From assembly GCF_014054725.1 (NCBI RefSeq), contig NZ_CP059563.1, positions 658,868-722,867 of the forward strand: a stretch of DNA of 64,000 bases. Direction: 5' to 3'. This document shows positions 3,424 through 13,901 of the stretch, piece after piece. Numbering within the stretch: the stretch's first letter is position 1; every line of letters begins with the position of its first letter. The notes under the pieces were generated by a model. That model saw nothing but the letters and a program-made list of their open reading frames with translations, ran no database searches and was not told where the DNA came from. Source of the DNA: Conchiformibius steedae (GTDB lineage Bacteria; Pseudomonadota; Gammaproteobacteria; Burkholderiales; Neisseriaceae). The position numbers and the translations under genes were made by a program.

Positions 3424-3499
3424 GCCGGTGTAGCTCAGTTGGTAGAGCACCTGACTTGTAATCAGGGGGTCGCGAGTTCGATTCCTGCCGCCGGCACCA
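3424..3499 (+). tRNA. tRNA-Thr (anticodon TGT), CCA encoded
   Basis: The 76-base gene folds as a standard cloverleaf. The acceptor stem is GCCGGTG with CGCCGGC (one G-T pair), there is a D-loop AGCTCAGTTGGTAGAGC, an anticodon loop CTTGTAA with anticodon TGT, and a T-arm GTTCGATTC. The CCA end is encoded at 3497-3499. Its 3' part is the apparent integration target of the element that follows: the core TCCTGCCGCC (3483-3492) recurs at 13892-13901. The gene remains intact, as is usual when a tyrosine integrase uses a tRNA 3' end. Confidence 0.97.
3476..3492 (+). other. attL core (tRNA-Thr 3' end)
   Basis: AGTTCG (from 3475) then, two bases on, TCCTGCCGCC at 3483-3492 inside the T-arm and acceptor of tRNA-Thr. 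The same arrangement, with only the two middle bases changed, appears at 13884-13901. This is the likely left attachment core of the element. Confidence 0.7.
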
Positions 3500-3719: not shown

Positions 3720-4916
3720 ATGCCCCTAAATGACCGCCAAATCAGGAATACCAAGCCCAAAGACAAACCGTATAAGCTGACCGATGCAAACGGCTTATTC
3801 CTGCTGGTTACGCCTGCAGGGGGCAAGCTGTGGCGTTTCAAATACCGTGTGGACGGTAAGGAAAAGTTATTGTCGTTGGGAAAATACCCCGATGTTTCGC
3901 TAATGGAAGCACGGGAAGCGAGAGAGCAGGCAAAGCAGATGCTGGCACAGGGTACAGACCCATCAGCAGCCAAGCAGCAAACCAAACGGGAGAAACAAGA
4001 CAGGCTTGCCAATACCTTTGCTAGCCTTGCCCGCGAATGGCACGAAAAGAACCGTTACCGTTGGAAGCCCAAACACGCAGAGCGGATATGGATTTACTTT
4101 GAAAACGATGTATTCCCCACCATTGGCAGCTTACCGATTAGCGAAATACGGGTAAAACACATTAAAGCCATGTTGGACGGTATCAGCGCAAGGGGTGTGT
4201 ATGAAACCGCCGAAAAAATCCGCCAATGGACGGGCGCGGTGTTTAAGTATGCCGCCATGTTGGAGCTGACCGAGAATAATCCCGCCATGCTGCTGCAAGG
4301 TTATCTAGCCAAGCAGGAAACCGAGCATATGCCCGCCTTACCGCATGGGGAATTGACGGAGTTTTACCGCCGTTTAAGCGTTGCCGATGCCGAGCCAGCG
4401 AATAAGCTAGGCATTATGATTCTGATGCTGGTGTTCGTACGCAATACCGAATTGCGCGGCGCACAATGGCATGAGATAGATTGGGCGCAGCGGCAATGGT
4501 TAATCCCCGCAGAGCGCATGAAAAAAACACGCGACCATGTTGTACCGTTGGCAGATTGGACGGTAGAGCTGCTGCATAAGCTGCAAGCCATAACGGGGCA
4601 TACGCCTTACCTGTTCCCCAGTCGCACCAAAAACGGCTATATCAGTGAAAATACATTTGGCAATATTATCAACAGCATGGGTTACAAAGGCATTGCCACC
4701 CCGCACGGCTTCCGCAGTCTAGCCAGCAGTACACTGAATGAGCAGGGCTTTAATCCCGATGCCATAGAGCGGCAATTAGCCCACGTTCCGCAAGACAAGG
4801 TACGCGCCGCATACAATAGAACGGAATATCTGACCGAAAGGATTGAGATGATGCAATGGTACGCCGACCACCTGAAGCAGTATTATGATGAAGCAGAGCG
4901 CAGCCCGATAGTGTGA
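3720..4916 (+). CDS. int: Tyrosine integrase, P4/DUF4102 family
   Basis: A 398-residue site-specific recombinase that should integrate and excise the element at tRNA-Thr. An N-terminal DUF4102 arm-binding domain covers about residues 1-90 (KPYKLTDANGLFLLV, LSLGKYPDVSLMEAR). A core-binding region covers about 98-195. The catalytic domain shows Arg246 (ELRGAQW), His329 and Arg332 in HGFR, His355 (LAHVP) and Tyr365 (AAYNRTEY), so all canonical residues are present. The ATG at 3720 has a poor ribosome-binding site, and the leader is occupied by GGGGGTA repeats, hinting at self-control. It lies 220 bases downstream of the tRNA in the usual orientation for a P4-type island. Confidence 0.95.
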   Translation: MPLNDRQIRNTKPKDKPYKLTDANGLFLLVTPAGGKLWRFKYRVDGKEKLLSLGKYPDVSLMEAREAREQAKQMLAQGTDPSAAKQQTKREKQDRLANTFASLAREWHEKNRYRWKPKHAERIWIYFENDVFPTIGSLPISEIRVKHIKAMLDGISARGVYETAEKIRQWTGAVFKYAAMLELTENNPAMLLQGYLAKQETEHMPALPHGELTEFYRRLSVADAEPANKLGIMILMLVFVRNTELRGAQWHEIDWAQRQWLIPAERMKKTRDHVVPLADWTVELLHKLQAITGHTPYLFPSRTKNGYISENTFGNIINSMGYKGIATPHGFRSLASSTLNEQGFNPDAIERQLAHVPQDKVRAAYNRTEYLTERIEMMQWYADHLKQYYDEAERSPIV

Positions 4917-4954: not shown

Positions 4955-5803
4955 TGTGGGCGCGTGGGGCGCGGCTGGTGTTGGGGCAAGCCTTTGGAAA
5001 CAGTCTTTTAGCAGGCAGAGTGAGCCATATAGACCCCCACACGTGAGATTAAAATTGATGGGAATATGGGAATAAAGATTAAAAACAATCTATTTTTTAA
5101 AATAAGTTTTTTATAAACAGTAATTTAATTGTTTTTTCCTGTTCCCAAACGGTGTGGGAATCTTGTGGGAATGCGTGGGAATCTTGGGAATGTATTTAAA
5201 TACAAATGTTTATTGTGGGAATGTTTGCAATGGGGGTGGGGTTTGAGTTGTATGGTTTGGGGTTTCTAGACCCCACGCACTCTCATTGGTATTTTTTTGG
5301 CATTTTGGGCGGGTTTTGTTAAGGGGTTTTTTGTTAATGTTAGGGTGGGTGGTTTGCCTTTGCTGCCTGCTATGGGTTAGGTACTTCCCGCCGTTCCGAC
5401 CGTTCGGGTAGTTCAAGCCGCTTTTTTTGTGAAGTGTGGTGGGCTGCTGACTTCCTTCCTGTGTAAAAAATGATGAAAAACAAGGGGTATTGGGGAAAGT
5501 GGGGCAGGGCGGGGGTGCGTAAAGTTCGGCGGCGGGTGCGGCGGATACCGCATAGACCCTTATTCATGGAATTTTTTTCCCCTGTAAACGTGTTAAAGTT
5601 AATGGTTTAACAGTTGTTAATCAATGATTTGAGCGCAATTTTATTGCGTGGTTTTGAACGGGCTGCGGCGGTGTGGAAGATATGCAGGGCTTGCCCTTTC
5701 CCTGCCTGCCGCAGCGCAGCTTTCGGGTTTGAAATGAAAGGATTGTAGCCGTTATAGAATGCAGATAGAATGCGGCAGACACACCAGCAAAGGAAATCTT
5801 ATT
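4955..5803. other. 849-base non-coding region with TGGGAAT repeats
   Basis: No credible gene on either strand between int and the 368-aa protein. The region holds a TGGGAAT array (5059-5222), a hairpin GGGGTTTCTAGACCCC at 5259-5274 and a second hairpin GCAGGG/CCCTGC at 5684-5705. The length, repeats and AT-rich tract at 5075-5150 suit a replication or regulatory site, and a small RNA is possible. Confidence 0.6.
5059..5222 (+). repeat. Left TGGGAAT iteron array (direct orientation)
   Basis: Seven copies of TGGGAAT start at 5059, 5067, 5155, 5166, 5176, 5185 and 5216; four of them follow each other at 9-11 base intervals, about one helical turn. An AT-rich stretch separates the first pair from the rest. 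Copies in the opposite orientation cluster at 13146-13223. The pattern resembles initiator-binding iterons. Confidence 0.75.
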
Positions 5804-6910
5804 ATGGCAACGGCGGTTACTTCACGCGATACGGTAGCGGGAATAGGGGCAATGGCATTATTGGCGGCAGAGAAGCCGTTTTTTCAGTCGGCGGCGCAAT
5901 TAGTGGCAGAGCGGGGGCAGATGGTAAAAATGCAAAGCCAGCTTGTTGCTGAAGTGGAAAGGCAGCGTTATCAGGAAATGATGGGCGGTTTATCTGCGCA
6001 TGAACGTTTGGGAAGTATGCGGTATGAAAGCGTAAACAGCATGATGGCTAAATATAGCAGCATATTGGCGGAACGCGGTACGTTTTCTATGTGGAAACAA
6101 TTGGAAAAGATGCAAGCTGCTGAAGCGGAAAGGTGGCAGTGTTATCAGGGAATGGCGGGCGGTTTGGCTGAACATGAACGTTTTGGAAAAATAAGGCAAT
6201 TTGCTAAAACGGGAACACGGATAAGCGATTTAGCTGCTGCTGCTGAACACCTGACCCTGACGGGAACGCGGCGGGAAAGTTTGGCTAATATGGCGGCTGA
6301 ATATAGCGGTATATTGGCGGAACGCGGTATGTTTTCTATGCGGGAACACTTGGAGAAAATGCAAGCCGATGCCGCTAAAGTATGGCAGGAGAGCAAAGCC
6401 CGTTCCCTGTCTGAATGCGTTAAAGAGCATGAAGCCCGTTTAGAGCGGCTAATCCGCCCGAATCCTGCGATTTTGGCATTGATGCGGGGCAATCCCCCGT
6501 CCGAGCCGAAAACGCCCGTTTCCGAGCCGCTACGCACGCCGCCGCCACAAGCCCAATCCCCTTTGCCTGCCCCCCAGCCAGTGCCGCAGCCTGAAAACGG
6601 TATTTCTGCACGACACCAGCCGCCCGCGCCCGCTGTTTCCGAGCCACAGCCCGAGCCGCAGTTTGTGATTGACGGCAAAGCAGTAAGCGAAACGGAATAT
6701 CAAGATTGGGTGGTAAGTAACCATTATCGGACAATCGGGCAGAAAGGCAATTATGCACGCGGGGCAGTGAAGCGGCAGATTATCGCCGACTTTATTCGGG
6801 AAAACCGTGAATTTGGCACGTCTAAAAACCAGTTTGCTGCCAAGCACCATAAGCGGTACAGCCGTACCTACGCCACGATACGCAATATTTTGAAAAAAGT
6901 TACCGTTTAA
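5804..6910 (+). CDS. Unknown 368-aa element protein with internal repeat and proline-rich linker
   Basis: I do not recognise this family. The N-terminal two thirds is charged and probably helical, and contains a duplicated module: GGLSAHERLG ... SILAERGTFSM..LEKMQA recurs as GGLAEHERFG ... GILAERGMFSM..LEKMQA. About 225-295 is a Pro/Glu-rich linker (repeated SEP, PQP). The last 75 residues form a compact basic module (YQDWVVSNHYRTIGQKGNY ... YSRTYATIRNILKKV) that could bind DNA. ATG at 5804 follows AAAGGAAA, so an upstream in-frame ATG at 5759 is rejected. A terminator follows at 6926. It is a single-gene unit in the slot where P4-like satellites often carry accessory genes, but no defence or virulence motif is visible. 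Confidence 0.8.
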   Translation: MATAVTSRDTVAGIGAMALLAAEKPFFQSAAQLVAERGQMVKMQSQLVAEVERQRYQEMMGGLSAHERLGSMRYESVNSMMAKYSSILAERGTFSMWKQLEKMQAAEAERWQCYQGMAGGLAEHERFGKIRQFAKTGTRISDLAAAAEHLTLTGTRRESLANMAAEYSGILAERGMFSMREHLEKMQADAAKVWQESKARSLSECVKEHEARLERLIRPNPAILALMRGNPPSEPKTPVSEPLRTPPPQAQSPLPAPQPVPQPENGISARHQPPAPAVSEPQPEPQFVIDGKAVSETEYQDWVVSNHYRTIGQKGNYARGAVKRQIIADFIRENREFGTSKNQFAAKHHKRYSRTYATIRNILKKVTV

Positions 6911-6950: not shown

Positions 6951-6996
6951 ACGTTTGAACAAACAGATAGGGGGGTATATTCGCAGGGTTTGTGCC

Positions 6997-7021
6997 ATGC
7001 ACAATCGCAAATATTGTGCAT
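6997..7021. promoter_or_regulatory. Perfect 9-bp palindromic operator candidate upstream of alpA
   Basis: ATGCACAAT at 6997-7005 and ATTGTGCAT at 7013-7021 are perfect inverted copies with a 7-base spacer. They lie about 80 bases before the AlpA start and 20 bases after a GGGGGGTA motif. This is a plausible operator for a dimeric regulator of the early operon; which protein binds is not known. Confidence 0.6.
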
Positions 7022-7097
7022 AGGCAAGGGGAAAAACAGGGCTTATGATGGCTGCCAATGCCTAACGGCGATTGTGATTAACCCAAAGGACACCAGC

Positions 7098-7325
7098 ATG
7101 AATGAAATTGTTTTTTTGCGTATGCCCGAAATGATGAAACGCACGGGCTTGAGCCGAGCAGCGATTTACTGCAAAGCCAATCCCAAAGACCGCCGCTTTG
7201 ACCCGCATTTTCCGCAGCCTGTGAAAATTACCGATACCGCTACGGGCTGGGTGGAAAGTGAAGTAAACGCATGGTTGGCGCACCGTATCGCTGTTTCTCG
7301 CCAAAAAGGGGGCAAACATGAATAA
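7098..7325 (+). CDS. AlpA-family helix-turn-helix regulator
   Basis: AlpA-like proteins are small MerR-fold DNA-binding proteins that activate or assist excision of P4-type islands. The 75 residues show the family core FLRMPEMMKRTGLSRAAIY, then FPQPVKI and a GWVESEVNAWLAHRI recognition and wing segment near the C-terminus. The start at 7098 follows AAAGGA at 9 bases. It is the first gene of an apparent operon and its stop overlaps the next gene by 8 bases. The 9-bp palindrome at 6997-7021 lies upstream. Role as activator or excision factor is inferred from family and position. Confidence 0.88.
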   Translation: MNEIVFLRMPEMMKRTGLSRAAIYCKANPKDRRFDPHFPQPVKITDTATGWVESEVNAWLAHRIAVSRQKGGKHE

Positions 7326-7782
7326 GCTGCCGCCGATTGCGCTGATGAGCCGAGACGATACGCATTTTTATGTTTTGCTGACCGATAAGGACAGCCTGAA
7401 GCAATGGTTTGAGAGCGGCAGACTGTGGCAGTATTCATCAGTTGCCAAGTTGATAAAAAGTGAAGCGCAAGAGCAGGGCTTGTTTAATCAAACCCTTGCG
7501 ATGGCGCACCATTATGATGCGCTGCTGTTTCATTTGTCTGCCCCTGCCTGCATTGATGATGCGCTGGCGCAAATGGCGTTTGTTTGCCGTTTGTATGATT
7601 TGTTTTTAGCGCGGAAAGTGCCGCCTATGCGGGCATTGCGCGAATGGCAGGCGCAGATTTGGGAAACGGGTGTTTTACCCTACGGGCAGCCGTGCCGTTC
7701 CCAATCCAGTTATTCACGGCTTGCCTGCGCCCTTGTACCACAGCTAAAGGGTGCGATGGGTAAAGCCCCGCGCCCGCACTAG
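7318..7782 (+). CDS. Unknown 154-aa element protein
   Basis: I do not recognise a family. It is a soluble, mixed-charge protein without signal peptide or membrane segment, with a helical middle (MAHHYDALLFHLSAPACIDDALAQ) and a basic C-terminal tail. The start lies within the last codons of the AlpA gene, so the two are probably translationally coupled. After its stop there is a 359-base gap that carries the C4-like RNA fold. Small uncharacterised proteins beside AlpA are common in P4-type islands; function cannot be stated. Confidence 0.7.
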   Translation: MNKLPPIALMSRDDTHFYVLLTDKDSLKQWFESGRLWQYSSVAKLIKSEAQEQGLFNQTLAMAHHYDALLFHLSAPACIDDALAQMAFVCRLYDLFLARKVPPMRALREWQAQIWETGVLPYGQPCRSQSSYSRLACALVPQLKGAMGKAPRPH

Positions 7783-8141
7783 CATTTACTGCCAAAAAAC
7801 ACACGGCTAGGGAAACCAATCCCCTAATTGCTTGACAGCCGCGCCCGCGCTTGGCAGAATCGGCGCATTGCTTTCAATCAAGCAATCGGGTTTAGCAGCC
7901 TGAACAAAGTGGCAAGCAAGCCGCCCATAAGCCCTGAATGCCTAGCGCATCAGAGAGCCAAAAGCGGCAGTGTTACGCTTGCATTCCCCCAGTTTTGCCT
8001 TTTTACGGGAAACGGGGGCGGGAGGCTTCGTGCCTGCTGGTATCACTTTGCCAGTCTGCTAACCCGCCCTTTGTTTCCCGCCTTGCGTTTAGCAGCGCGA
8101 AAGCGGGTGTATTAAACCAAAGTGAAAAGGTAAAACTTTCT
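7783..8141 (+). other. 359-base region without a supported gene, holding an RNA structure
   Basis: Open frames cross this stretch (for example 7828-8115 and 7938 onward) but have no ribosome-binding site and overlap a long nested stem-loop at 8006-8080. I treat the region as untranslated leader and RNA gene rather than protein-coding. Confidence 0.55.
8006..8080 (+). ncRNA. C4-like antisense RNA candidate
   Basis: The 75 bases form a nested three-way junction: outer stem CGGGAAAC (8006-8013) with GTTTCCCG (8073-8080); second stem GGGCGGG (8016-8022) with CCCGCCC (8063-8069); hairpin AGGC-TTCGT-GCCT (8023-8035); hairpin CTGG-10-CCAG (8037-8054). The loop segment TCACTTTG (8043-8050) is exactly complementary to CAAAGTGA (8118-8125), which lies at the ribosome-binding site of the next gene, and CTGCTAA (8056-8062) complements TTAGCAG (8089-8095). 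Phage P1/P7 C4 and P4 CI RNAs are small immunity RNAs of this general design. Structure and complementarity are seen; identity and function are inferred. Confidence 0.55.
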
Positions 8142-8369
8142 ATGAATCAATCTGATGCTTGCGGCGTATCTGTGCGCCGTTCCCGTTCCGTCCGTCAAGG
8201 CTTTACGCGCCCGCTGCTGGTGCAAACGCTGCGGACTTTTCCGAGCTTTCGTCAAGCCAGCGATTTTGTCGCTTTGCGCTTAAACAGCCGCCTGAATTAC
8301 CGTTTGGCAATCCAGCAAACGCCCGCAGGGGCATGGGCTGTGTGCCGTGTGATGCGCGGGGGTGTGTGA
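8142..8369 (+). CDS. Unknown 75-aa basic element protein
   Basis: A small arginine-rich protein (RRSRSVRQGFTRPLL near the start) of unknown family. ATG at 8142 follows AAAAGG at 11 bases; the bases just before that site, CAAAGTGA (8118-8125), are complementary to a loop of the upstream RNA fold, so translation may be controlled there. The stop TGA shares an A with the next ATG (TGATG), implying coupling. A longer frame upstream to 7938 is rejected because it runs through the RNA structure. Function unknown. Confidence 0.6.
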   Translation: MNQSDACGVSVRRSRSVRQGFTRPLLVQTLRTFPSFRQASDFVALRLNSRLNYRLAIQQTPAGAWAVCRVMRGGV

Positions 8370-8803
8370 TGGAAAAGCAAGTAAACAGAAAATCGGGTAT
8401 GTATAGCAGCCTTGCTATTCTGCTGGCTAATGCCCCTGCCGTTGCCATTTTTCAAGATGCTTCTTTGGTAAATCGTGGAGCTGCTTTACAAGGCTTCAGT
8501 ACCGATGATTGTGTCTTTTTGTCTTCTTTAGCCGAATGTGCACAACTTGATTTGGCAGAGCTGTTGAGTTTTGCTTCCTATTCCCAACAGGCATTTAATC
8601 ACAATCGCCCTTTGAGTGAATGGCTGGACAGCAAGCAGATGGCGGCGGCATTGTCCACCATTACACATCTTGTTGCCGATATGATGGGGCAGTTGTCTGA
8701 TTTGCGGGAGACTGCTTATAGTGAAGTGGCATTCCGTGAAGGCGCACAAACGCTGTATCCGTGCCAGTCCATTCCACCCCTTTCCAAAGAATCCCAATCC
8801 TAA
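8369..8803 (+). CDS. Unknown 144-aa element protein
   Basis: No family recognised. The sequence is mostly helical and soluble, rich in Leu, Ala and Ser, with a central stretch LSSLAECAQLDLAELLSFASYSQQAFNHNRPLSEWL. The ATG overlaps the stop of the previous gene by one base, so re-initiation is likely. It is followed by a hairpin at 8838-8859 that may end the alpA transcript. Co-transcription suggests a role in early control or replication, but nothing specific can be said. Confidence 0.65.
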   Translation: MEKQVNRKSGMYSSLAILLANAPAVAIFQDASLVNRGAALQGFSTDDCVFLSSLAECAQLDLAELLSFASYSQQAFNHNRPLSEWLDSKQMAAALSTITHLVADMMGQLSDLRETAYSEVAFREGAQTLYPCQSIPPLSKESQS

Positions 8804-10091: not shown

Positions 10092-11147
10092 ATGAAAACG
10101 ATGTACACATTGGCAGACGTGAAAGCCGCTGCCAACGGTAATTGGGAAGCGATTTTATCGGCTTTGGGCGTTCCCCAACACCTGTTAAATAAAAACAAAC
10201 ACCAGCCTTGCCCTGCTTGTGGCGGCAAAAACCGTTTCCGTTTTACCGATAACGGCGGGCGCGGCTGGTTTATCTGCAACCAATGCAACCAAAAAGGCGG
10301 CAGCGGCTTTGATTTGCTGATGCTGGTGTTTGGCTGCACGTTTGATGAAGCCTTAAAGCGCGTGGCGGAATTATTGGGTATGAGCGGCGGCACACGCAGT
10401 CCCGCCCTTACCCTGCCAGCCCGTGAAACCGCACCGCCGACCGTACAGACGGACGAAAACCAACGGCAAAGGCTGCTGGAATGTTGGAACGGCTGCCAAT
10501 CGTGGCAGAGCGGCGGCGTGATTGCCGCGTATTTGAGCGGGCGCGGTATTCCCGAAGCGGGCAACCTGCCTTTTCAAGATGACGGGCTGCGTTTTCACAG
10601 CAGCTTGGCTTATTGGCATCAGGGCGCGTGTTTGGGGCGTTTTCCTGCGATGGTGGGCGCGTTCCGCCACGCAGACGGCACGTTTGCGGGTTTGCACTTA
10701 ACCTATCTGATGCAGCAGGGCGGCAAGGTGTTTAAGGCGGTATTGAAAGACCCGAAAACGGGGGAGCGTTTGGACGCGAAAAAACACCGTTCCATTCACG
10801 CGGGGGCATTGAGCGGGGCAGCCGTGCCTTTATTCGGACTGCCTGAAAACGGCTGTTTGGCGGTATGTGAGGGCATTGAAACGGCGGCGGCGGCGCATTG
10901 CGTGAGCGGCTTGAGCGTGTGGGCGTGCGGGGCGGCAAACCGTATTGCCGCATTTGCCCTGCCTGAAGCGGTGCGCCGTTTGGTGGTAATTGCCGACAAC
11001 GACCGCAACCAAACGGGCATTAACGCGGCGTATCAGCTGCAAAGGCGTTATTACAAAGCCTTAAACGGCAATATTGACGTTTGGCAGCCTGATGAAGCCG
11101 ATTGCGATGTATTGGATATTTTGGCACAGGAAACACAAGGGAAGTAA
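10092..11147 (+). CDS. P4-type zinc-finger / Toprim primase
   Basis: This 351-residue protein should make primers for replication of the element. Residues 36-70 form a zinc ribbon of the P4-alpha/DnaG kind (Cys40, Cys43, Cys62, Cys65 in CPACGG and ICNQC). The C-terminal half holds a Toprim domain, with the glutamate in CLAVCEGIETAAA and the DxD in VVIADNDRNQTG. In P4 the primase and helicase form one long alpha protein; here the helicase-like ATPase is the next gene, so the functions are split. ATG at 10092 follows GGGGGGTAAAG; a second ATG at 10101 is possible. The family assignment is firm. Confidence 0.92.
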   Translation: MKTMYTLADVKAAANGNWEAILSALGVPQHLLNKNKHQPCPACGGKNRFRFTDNGGRGWFICNQCNQKGGSGFDLLMLVFGCTFDEALKRVAELLGMSGGTRSPALTLPARETAPPTVQTDENQRQRLLECWNGCQSWQSGGVIAAYLSGRGIPEAGNLPFQDDGLRFHSSLAYWHQGACLGRFPAMVGAFRHADGTFAGLHLTYLMQQGGKVFKAVLKDPKTGERLDAKKHRSIHAGALSGAAVPLFGLPENGCLAVCEGIETAAAAHCVSGLSVWACGAANRIAAFALPEAVRRLVVIADNDRNQTGINAAYQLQRRYYKALNGNIDVWQPDEADCDVLDILAQETQGK

Positions 11148-11151
11148 CAGC

Positions 11152-12996
11152 ATGGAAAAAGTAATCAAACTGAATACACAAAACCGTTCTTTAAAGCGTT
11201 TGGCAAAGCTGGCAGATGAAAAGGGGCAGGGCAGCGATTTAAAGCCACATTTCATCACAGACGAAACGGGCGTATGGTTTCAGGCGGTGGGGCATGATAA
11301 GGACGGTACGCCCTTTCTCAAGCCTTTGGTGCGCGTGTGCGATGCGTTTAAAGTGATTGGGCGCGGGCAGAGCGCAGATGAGCGGGAATACCGCATTTTG
11401 GAATACCGCCGCAACGGGCGCGGGGCAATGAAGCAAGTGGCGTTTGCGATGGAAAACGTGGGGCGTAACGATGGCTTGAGCCTGCTGCGCAGTATGGGGA
11501 TTTCCATTAAGGAAAAACACAAAAGCGAATTGTGGGATTATATCCAATGGGGCGGCGACAGCACCGAATGGGAAATCGTATCACGCGGCGGCTGGACGGA
11601 TAAAAGCTGTACCGCCTATGTGCTGCCGAGCGGGGAAGTGATTGGCAATCCCGATAAAAACATTATCTATACGGGCGACACCAGCAAGCGTGAATCTTTT
11701 GAAGTTTCGGGCAGCCTGAAAGACTGGCAAGAACACGTTGCCCGCTATTTGGCAGGCAATTCACGCCCCCTGCTGGCGTTGGGAACGGTGTTTGCCGCGC
11801 CGTTTTTGGGGATTTTGCGCGATGAAAACGGCGGTTTTCACTTTTACGGCAGCAGTTCCATTGGCAAAAGCCTGTTGGGTATGGCGGCGATGTCGGCGAT
11901 GGGCGAGCCTGCGGGCTTAAAAGTGCAATGGAAAGGCACAAGTTTGGGCTTTGACAATGAAGCCGCCGCCAATAATGACGGCATTGTTTTTCTTGATGAA
12001 ATTGGCGAAGCAGAGCAAAAAACCGTGAAAGATGTCGGCTATTCGGTGTTTAACGGCGTTTCCAAGCTGCAAGGCGCAAAACAAGGCGGCAACCGCACAC
12101 GGATTACATGGCGGATTTTGGCGATTTCTACAGGGGAATTTGATGCCGCGCATTATCTGAAACAAGACGGCTTGGAGTGGAACGCAGGGCAAGCCGTGCG
12201 CCTGCCCGCCATTCCTGCCGATGCGGGCAAAGGTTACGGCGTGTTTGACACCCTGCACGGTTTTGGTACGTCCGCAGAATTGGCATTGCATTTGGGCACA
12301 GCCAGCAAACGGTTTTACGGAGCGGCGTGGCGGCAATACCTGACCGAATTAGCCCAGCGCATGAATAGCGAGCCTGAAAAACTGATTGGGCGCATTCATG
12401 CCCTGCAAGCCGAATTTGCCGCCATGCTGCCGCCGAAACTGGACAGCCAGCCCGCACGCGCTGCCAAACGCTTCACGCTGGCGGCTGCCGCTTTGGAGCT
12501 GGCAGGCGAGTGGGGAATTACAGGTTTTGCCAAAGGCACGGGATTTGCGGGCGTACACGCCTGTTTTCAGGCATGGTATGAACGCGATGGCAAAAGCAAC
12601 CGTGAAGAAGCGCAAATCATTAAAAATGCCAAAGACTTTTTACAGGTACACGGGCGCGGCGAGCGTTTTACCCGCCTGATTCAGAGCAGCTATGATGTGA
12701 TGCCTGCCACAGGGCGCAATCATGCGGGTTTTCGGATTGAAACCGCAGGCAATGATGCCATGCCGCGCTTTTATATCAATGATTCGGTGTTTGAACAGGA
12801 AATTTGCAACGGCTTTGATACCAAGTTTGTGTGTGATGTGCTGAAAAACTGCGGCTGGCTGCTGCGGGAAGCCAATAACCGCCAAAAGTTCAAACTGCCG
12901 CCGAAAATGTGCGATGCGCTGCGTTTGCCAAACAGTACCCGTATGTACTGCCTGCACGGATTCGCCCCGCCCGAAAAAGACGAAAAAGCGGATTAA
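11152..12996 (+). CDS. DUF927-domain ATPase (helicase-like) of the element
   Basis: A 614-residue protein of the DUF927 superfamily, found beside Toprim primases in phages, satellites and plasmids and presumed to be the replicative helicase. About 130-290 carries the core: WEIVSRGGWTD, then Walker A FYGSSSIGKS at 231-240 and Walker B GIVFLDEIGE at 277-286, followed by an RTRITWRILAISTGE sensor-like strand. The C-terminal third is helical and may be an initiator or DNA-binding part. The start at 11152 lies five bases after the primase stop, so the pair is co-translated. A perfect 9-bp terminator stem follows at 13017. Helicase activity is inferred from family. Confidence 0.9.
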   Translation: MEKVIKLNTQNRSLKRLAKLADEKGQGSDLKPHFITDETGVWFQAVGHDKDGTPFLKPLVRVCDAFKVIGRGQSADEREYRILEYRRNGRGAMKQVAFAMENVGRNDGLSLLRSMGISIKEKHKSELWDYIQWGGDSTEWEIVSRGGWTDKSCTAYVLPSGEVIGNPDKNIIYTGDTSKRESFEVSGSLKDWQEHVARYLAGNSRPLLALGTVFAAPFLGILRDENGGFHFYGSSSIGKSLLGMAAMSAMGEPAGLKVQWKGTSLGFDNEAAANNDGIVFLDEIGEAEQKTVKDVGYSVFNGVSKLQGAKQGGNRTRITWRILAISTGEFDAAHYLKQDGLEWNAGQAVRLPAIPADAGKGYGVFDTLHGFGTSAELALHLGTASKRFYGAAWRQYLTELAQRMNSEPEKLIGRIHALQAEFAAMLPPKLDSQPARAAKRFTLAAAALELAGEWGITGFAKGTGFAGVHACFQAWYERDGKSNREEAQIIKNAKDFLQVHGRGERFTRLIQSSYDVMPATGRNHAGFRIETAGNDAMPRFYINDSVFEQEICNGFDTKFVCDVLKNCGWLLREANNRQKFKLPPKMCDALRLPNSTRMYCLHGFAPPEKDEKAD

Positions 12997-13883: not shown

Positions 13884-13901
13884 AGTTCGTGTCCTGCCGC
13901 C
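13884..13901 (+). other. attR core (partial tRNA-Thr 3' end)
   Basis: AGTTCG, two variable bases, then TCCTGCCGCC, repeating the T-arm and acceptor of tRNA-Thr. The rest of the acceptor end (GGCACC before the trailing A) is missing here, although the sequence beyond resumes like the DNA after the tRNA, including its terminator. So the copy looks decayed by a small deletion. Confidence 0.7.

Follow-up and report, generated by a model that had tools for sequence, protein, structure and literature searches.

The C4 RNA of phages P1 and P7 and the CI RNA of P4 confer immunity through antisense pairing, and RNAs of the C4 family are processed by RNase P to about 77 nt and repress by antisense action in vivo. 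P4-like satellites are recognised by an integrase, an AlpA-type protein, an alpha-type primase-helicase and a CI-type RNA arranged in the order found in P4, and by the capsid-hijacking genes sid, psu and delta. Passages of a 2010 survey (PMC2864571) cover C4 and c4-a1b1, and parts of PMC5320573 describe RNase P processing of C4 together with the roles of its guides a' and b'. Parts of PMC4825925 set out the pairing of CI with seqA and seqC, and also the Gifsy-1 layout isrK-orf45-anrP, in which the antirepressor is translated through orf45.

Here we analysed a 64,000-nucleotide stretch of Conchiformibius steedae DNA (contig NZ_CP059563.1, positions 658,868 to 722,867; hereafter the window), and found in it a genuine C4 antisense RNA accompanied by all of its cognate sites; the kind of RNA is known and the setting is new. 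The locus shares with P1/P7 C4 (RF01695) the fold, the guides a' and b', four flanking target sites and a small ORF1 that overlaps ORF2. It differs from P1/P7 in the guides themselves, in the products of ORF1 and ORF2, which share no family match with Icd or Ant1, and in genes that run on into replication genes, unlike the P1/P7 C4 operon. With P4, where CI acts with seqA/seqC, it has in common the Rfam family, an AlpA-type gene upstream, and C4, a small ORF, ORF2 and primase/helicase genes downstream, all in one direction; the differences from P4 are an island without a sid, psu or delta match among the ten proteins scanned, a primase and a DUF927 protein on separate genes, and an ORF2 that is not alignable with epsilon. 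A mobile element of the replication type, from the Neisseria family, is in this way shown to carry the C4/CI immunity module in complete form. A search of open-licence papers, in which absence is weak evidence, found no literature on C4 antisense RNAs in Neisseria.

The C4 RNA, its leader and its four target sites

The Rfam C4 model was searched against the whole window and matched over its full length (1-87) with 60.6 bits and E = 3e-9, compared with a curated cut-off of 45. Two further Rfam matches in the window pass their thresholds, an RNase P RNA and the tRNA. The C4 model also matches P1 C4 (68.8 bits) and P4 CI (74.9 bits), and the annotated c4 of P7 has a DNA similarity of 76% to the C4 of the window (E 4e-6). 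A preliminary description of this DNA had proposed a C4-like RNA at 8006-8125, folded as a nested three-way junction with stems of 8 and 7 bp and two hairpins, and the model match and the fold agree with both proposals. The outer stem (8006-8013/8073-8080) consists of eight Watson-Crick pairs and continues with two G-U pairs (8014-8015/8071-8072), the inner stem (8016-8022/8063-8069) has seven pairs with T8070 bulged, and the stems enclose two hairpins. The minimum free energy is -45.4 kcal/mol versus -26.7 +/- 3.4 for 200 dinucleotide shuffles, none of which was as good (z = -5.4). In an alignment of 39 sequences, hand-picked from the 62 C4 matches outside one C4-rich genome of the same family (G078), two-sided changes are present at 16 of the 23 pairs; the structure covaries among homologues.

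Four C4 target sites were found, b1 and a1 upstream of the RNA and b2 and a2 downstream, and the guide-target matches are perfect over 7-8 bases at all four (Table 1). The preliminary description had predicted the two downstream targets, and both stand by sequence: the loop at 8043-8050, in which CACTTTG begins at 8044, is complementary to 8118-8125 over eight bases with AAAAGG adjoining, and CTGCTAA (8056-8062) is complementary to 8089-8095 over seven. Its count of two targets did not stand, the upstream b1/a1 pair having been missed. Applied to P1 and P4, the script used for the window recovers a1, b1, a2 and b2 arranged as they are here.

Table 1 Coordinates, in the window, of the C4 locus and of the element that carries it
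Feature	Position	Strand	Basis and remarks
Likely attL core, 3' end of tRNA-Thr (3424-3499), TTCGATTCCTGCCGCC	3477..3492	+	14/16 bases identical to 13886-13901; tRNA by ARAGORN
Tyrosine integrase	3720..4916	+	Pfam Arm-DNA-bind_3, Phage_int_M, Phage_integrase
AlpA-type excisionase/regulator, ORF from first possible start	6990..7325	+	PF05930, E 4e-13
Leader promoter-like site TTGACA-17-CAGAAT, TG before -10	7832..7860	+	Sole such site in 7700-8200
Leader hairpin A, 6 pairs	7868..7885	+	De novo consensus fold of 26 leaders; two-sided changes at 6/6 pairs
Leader hairpin B, loop TTTAGCAG (7891-7898) = target b1	7887..7902	+	Consensus fold; Rfam c4-a1b1 sub-threshold
Target a1, CAAAGTG	7905..7911	+	Complement of C4 loop 8044-8050; cognate test
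Hairpin C	7912..7982	+	Consensus fold; outer stem 7912-7917/7977-7982, inner stem 7920-7924/7964-7968
C4 antisense RNA	8001..8085	+	RF01695, 60.6 bits, E 3e-9; guide a' in 8043-8050, guide b' 8056-8062
Target b2, TTTAGCAG	8088..8095	+	Guide complementarity; cognate test
Target a2, CAAAGTGA (CAAAGTG from 8118)	8118..8125	+	One-base overlap with AAAAGG Shine-Dalgarno 8125-8130
ORF1, 75 aa, proposed direct target, position of P1 icd	8142..8369	+	Shine-Dalgarno and a2 directly upstream
ORF2, 144 aa, proposed antirepressor-like effector	8369..8803	+	Position of P1 ant1 and P4 epsilon; family alignment
Toprim primase	10092..11147	+	Toprim_3, Zn_Ribbon_Prim, phrog_510
DUF927 protein, primase/helicase-type, ORF from first possible start	11074..12996	+	PF06048, E 3e-51; phrog_1139
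Likely attR core, TTCGTGTCCTGCCGCC	13886..13901	+	14/16-base repeat of tRNA-Thr 3' end

Upstream of the leader hairpins, 7700-8200 contains one site of the TTGACA-17-CAGAAT type on both strands together, where shuffles give 0.2 +/- 0.5, and a transcript start would thus be expected just 5' of the first leader hairpin. The best-scoring promoter-like site near the second C4 of this genome lies at a nearly equal distance from C4; in several other loci the top-scoring site falls at a different place, and the site is claimed for the window only, with the second copy noted. A consensus fold of 26 leaders, hand-picked from 64 segments and including four from G078, recovers hairpins A, B and C with two-sided changes at 14 of the 18 pairs, the outer stem of hairpin C included. 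The Rfam c4-a1b1 model (RF03163) scores 31.7 bits at 7854-7906 (cut-off 46.7; E 8e-6 in a 1301-base search), with b1/a1 in or beside the match; P4 scores 44.1, also below the cut-off, and P1 51.0, above it.

Hairpin C lies between a1 and C4, beyond the stretches of the window that match Rfam C4 or c4-a1b1; it is stacked and conserved and also folds in P1. It was defined by the consensus fold; a brute-force search for the longest stem conflated different stems and was set aside. A run of at least four T follows its inner stem in 19 of the 26 aligned leaders, and no such run was found after hairpin C in the window or in the sister copy.

The genes downstream of C4 and the host element

The ORF1 stop and the ORF2 ATG overlap by one base (TGATG), and a GTG three bases upstream would give an ORF2 product of 145 aa. 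P1 icd/ant1 (-4) and P4 ORF1/epsilon (-8) overlap as ORF1 and ORF2 do, and those of P7 as well. NCBIfam identifies the P4 ORF1 product as an Icd-like protein, whereas ORF1 of the window has no such match; neither ORF1 nor ORF2 matches Pfam, PHROGs or NCBIfam at E 0.1. An ORF1 homologue, 60% identical, follows the second C4 of the same genome, an alignment search with ORF1 matched three Neisseria loci and one viral contig, and tblastn found no match to ORF1 in the phage collection. The preliminary description had named both genes as targets of the RNA. This is supported for the 75-aa gene, with a2 at its Shine-Dalgarno sequence, and corrected for the 144-aa gene, which would be controlled via translational coupling or polarity and not via its own site.

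A search with the ORF2 alignment gave 20 hits in 13 of 83 genomes, and single-protein scans found no relatives in viral contigs. Our own model places a C4 in 11 of the 20 loci, five of them independent, since the other six are rows of the alignment and had been chosen for their position after C4. At L004 and L052, C4 is followed first by a gene of the ORF2 family. No alignment of the family to P4 epsilon was obtained with hhalign (probability 0.2%), and an AlphaFold2 prediction of ORF2 from the single sequence was too poor for a fold search (mean pLDDT 49). The ORF2 family is small and has no annotation.

Of the 57 genes in first or second place behind C4, 49 were scanned; the others were six second genes, one first gene nearly identical to another and one 46-aa fragment. 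Pfam matches were Bro-N (4), AntA (3), S24 (2), ORF6C (2) and Rha, KilA-N, ANT and Derepression (1 each); the rest of the 49, comprising most first and second genes, had no Pfam match at E 0.001. Among the PHROGs matches listed (25 families), the names are mostly anti-repressor. The guarded gene carries ANT in P1 and Derepression in P4, and in the relatives it carries AntA (L015, L025, L030), Bro-N (L054, L057, L065, L079) or Rha (L005), with an a2 site in each of these eight that matches its own guide at six or more bases. One further locus with KilA-N (L056), in which the script finds no a2 or b2, was not counted among them. So, judged by guide complementarity, C4 appears to guard an antirepressor of known type in eight relatives. 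Because the guarded genes of P1, P4 and these eight relatives belong to antirepressor families, the 144-aa protein may be an antirepressor as well, an assignment made from position; since the place behind C4 is conserved, ORF2 is a candidate for an antirepressor that has so far gone unrecognised.

In two loci (L022, L026), C4 and ORF1 are followed by an S24-peptidase-like protein of about 120 aa, that of L026 being just below the Pfam cut-off. This protein is perhaps a repressor fragment that acts as an antirepressor.

The host of the C4 module is a 10.4-kb element in a tRNA-Thr gene. Its order of AlpA, C4, small ORF, ORF2 and replication genes is that of P4, and integrase, AlpA, primase-helicase and CI-type RNA are all present in P4 order, with the primase and the DUF927 protein on two genes. 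Among ten island proteins scanned against Pfam and PHROGs, none matched the capsid-hijacking genes sid, psu or delta, and for this reason we do not call the element a P4-like satellite. A P2-type capsid gene, sought in this genome as a sign of a helper, was not found. The window also contains a 383-aa ORF (5759-6910) with internal direct repeats of 99 and 54 bases and a weak PHROGs match.

Guides and targets across the family

Matches to RF01695 are present in at least 39 of 83 genomes of the family, at least 34 of them above the cut-off, and in at least 55 of 399 genomes sampled from the order; these are lower bounds, with up to 45 (family) and up to 10 (order) candidates scored per genome. 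One family genome (G042) had no C4 in this survey and one in a later search. For the guide comparison we used all 62 loci outside G078, including matches below the cut-off, together with P1 and P4. These yielded 43 distinct guide strings, of which 41 are from the family (window and sister copy among them) and the others from P1 and P4. For every guide we measured how long an exact complement it has, at most, at sites in fixed positions, and compared cognate with all other pairings by 5000 permutations; each distinct guide was counted once, and since the loci are related, the permutation figure is not a strict probability.

Cognate complementarity was higher at all four sites, and no permutation of the 5000 reached the cognate mean at any of them. 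Average complement lengths for cognate versus non-cognate pairings were 7.49 versus 4.13 bases for a'-a2, 6.60 versus 3.70 for b'-b2, 6.70 versus 4.98 for a' upstream and 6.88 versus 4.98 for b' upstream. A cognate site of at least six bases is present in 40 of 43 loci for a2, 36 for b2, 35 for a1 and 40 for b1, leaving 3, 7, 8 and 3 loci, respectively, without a six-base match. Non-cognate pairs reach six or more bases in 9% (a2), 12% (b2), 25% (a' upstream) and 27% (b' upstream) of cases. This excess of cognate complementarity at all four sites indicates that guide and targets change together, and from this paired change, seen across 43 distinct guides, one can predict which elements would silence one another.

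The genome of the window has two C4 hits, the second at 57.5 bits and 70 kb away. For each of the two, complementarity reaches 8 and 7 bases at its own a2/b2, against 4 and 3 at those of the other, and by this measure the two look mutually orthogonal. Two natural, apparently orthogonal guide/target pairs in one genome make guide swaps simple. By eye, from its translations, the second locus (L032, G000:C3:731500-743500) looks like a second such element, beside a tRNA-Leu and with its integrase reading frame split in two.

The genome G078 contains 41 C4 RNAs (loci L033-L051 and L082-L086), several of them in tandem with spacings of a few hundred bases, and many units have, by eye, their own TTGACA-type site, b1/a1 and hairpin. 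Among 40 units examined there are 37 distinct guides. Both an own a2 and an own b2, of at least six bases each, are present in 22 units and not in the other 18, of which 14 lie in clusters. Five of these 18 units pass the threshold for another unit of the same genome: two of the cross-matches were counted as strong (9 and 7 bases), and the other three consist of a 7- and a 6-base match, all to one single unit. Two further genomes of the order have 29 (G179) and 14 C4 copies.

A broader idea, which we put forward as speculative and on the whole improbable, is that C4 serves as a swappable antisense incompatibility code with mutually blind groups, that genomes of the G078 type hold a repertoire acting in trans against incoming satellites or phages, and that the ORF2 family is a new kind of antirepressor. 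If this were true, mobile elements would diverge into immunity groups via joint change of guide and target, and two such groups would coexist in the genome of the window.

Proposed mechanism and alternative readings

It is very likely that this stretch serves an integrated satellite-like replicon as its immunity (maintenance) region, in which C4 silences ORF1, ORF2 and the replication genes; we infer the immunity function by analogy with P1/P7 and P4. The preliminary description had read the RNA as the immunity RNA of the element, and the C4 model hit, the covariation and the cognate-specific guide-target matches support it. A single sigma-70-type promoter (7832-7860) would produce a leader RNA that contains b1, a1, hairpin C, C4, b2 and a2, from which C4 would be processed to about 8007-8085, probably by RNase P. 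The junction guide b' would pair with b2, and the loop guide a' would pair with a2, where ORF1 has its ribosome-binding site. This would block translation of the 75-aa product and, by coupling and polarity, silence ORF2, which overlaps ORF1 and encodes the 144-aa product, and the primase/helicase genes that follow. When C4 pairs with a1/b1, the leader may in addition be stopped early or destabilised, as in P4. An incoming second copy of the element would then be silenced by the resident C4.

A different emphasis, tentative and in our estimate somewhat unlikely, is a switch of the IsrK type, in which a short leader RNA that ends at hairpin C and carries b1/a1 would soak up C4 or remodel the mRNA in trans and so turn ORF1 and ORF2 on. 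Parts of PMC4825925 report that IsrK activates anrP in trans and term it a structural homologue of P4 SeqA, and the Gifsy-1 locus described there (IsrK, STnc1160) shares with the window a hairpin leader, a processed RNA downstream, a small ORF and an antirepressor, the last being the proposed role of ORF2. The conservation of hairpin C favours such a switch, as do scores of the isrK model (RF01394), which matches the P4 leader upstream of C4 at 60.8 bits, above the threshold of 50, and P1 (35.1) and one relative (L019, 34.3) below the cut-off but significantly. The score of the window itself is insignificant (16.6 bits, E 0.82), however, and its hairpin C is among those with no T-run, while the short activating isoform is a feature of IsrK. 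A switch of this kind would add to the silencing mechanism and not replace it, making the region as much an induction switch as an immunity region.

The module could also be a decayed relic whose RNA was functional in an ancestor and which no longer works. The missing T-run and the sub-threshold a1b1 match would be compatible with decay, but the guides are perfectly complementary to all four sites, both outer C4 stems are perfect save for one bulge, and the frames of ORF1, ORF2, primase, helicase and integrase are all open, which makes this reading very unlikely.

We consider it highly improbable that C4 acts chiefly in trans, regulating other elements or messages of the host and not its own operon. 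These two roles are proposed for multi-copy C4-like RNAs of Acinetobacter baumannii in parts of PMC5320573, where the Group 1 sRNAs are described as C4-like and abundant; they share the C4 fold and, as in G078, occur in many copies per genome, and multi-copy C4s also exist in G179. The genome of the window differs in having two C4 hits only, each with full cis cognate sites that differ together with the guide.

That the stretch codes for protein, in a frame at 7828-8115 or in one at 7938-8369 that runs through C4 into ORF1, is extremely improbable and was rejected on frame evidence and covariation: both frames are open, the second genomic copy is also open through C4 into ORF1 (L032 5746-6297), and in P4 a 'cI' protein is still annotated (8168-8584) with a frame that was open in our own test, but among 39 loci only 14 keep the frame of ORF1 open across C4, which argues against coding constraint, and substitutions preserve RNA pairs and guide-target matches. 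By eye, the sister copy is open across C4 in a frame other than that of 7828-8115.
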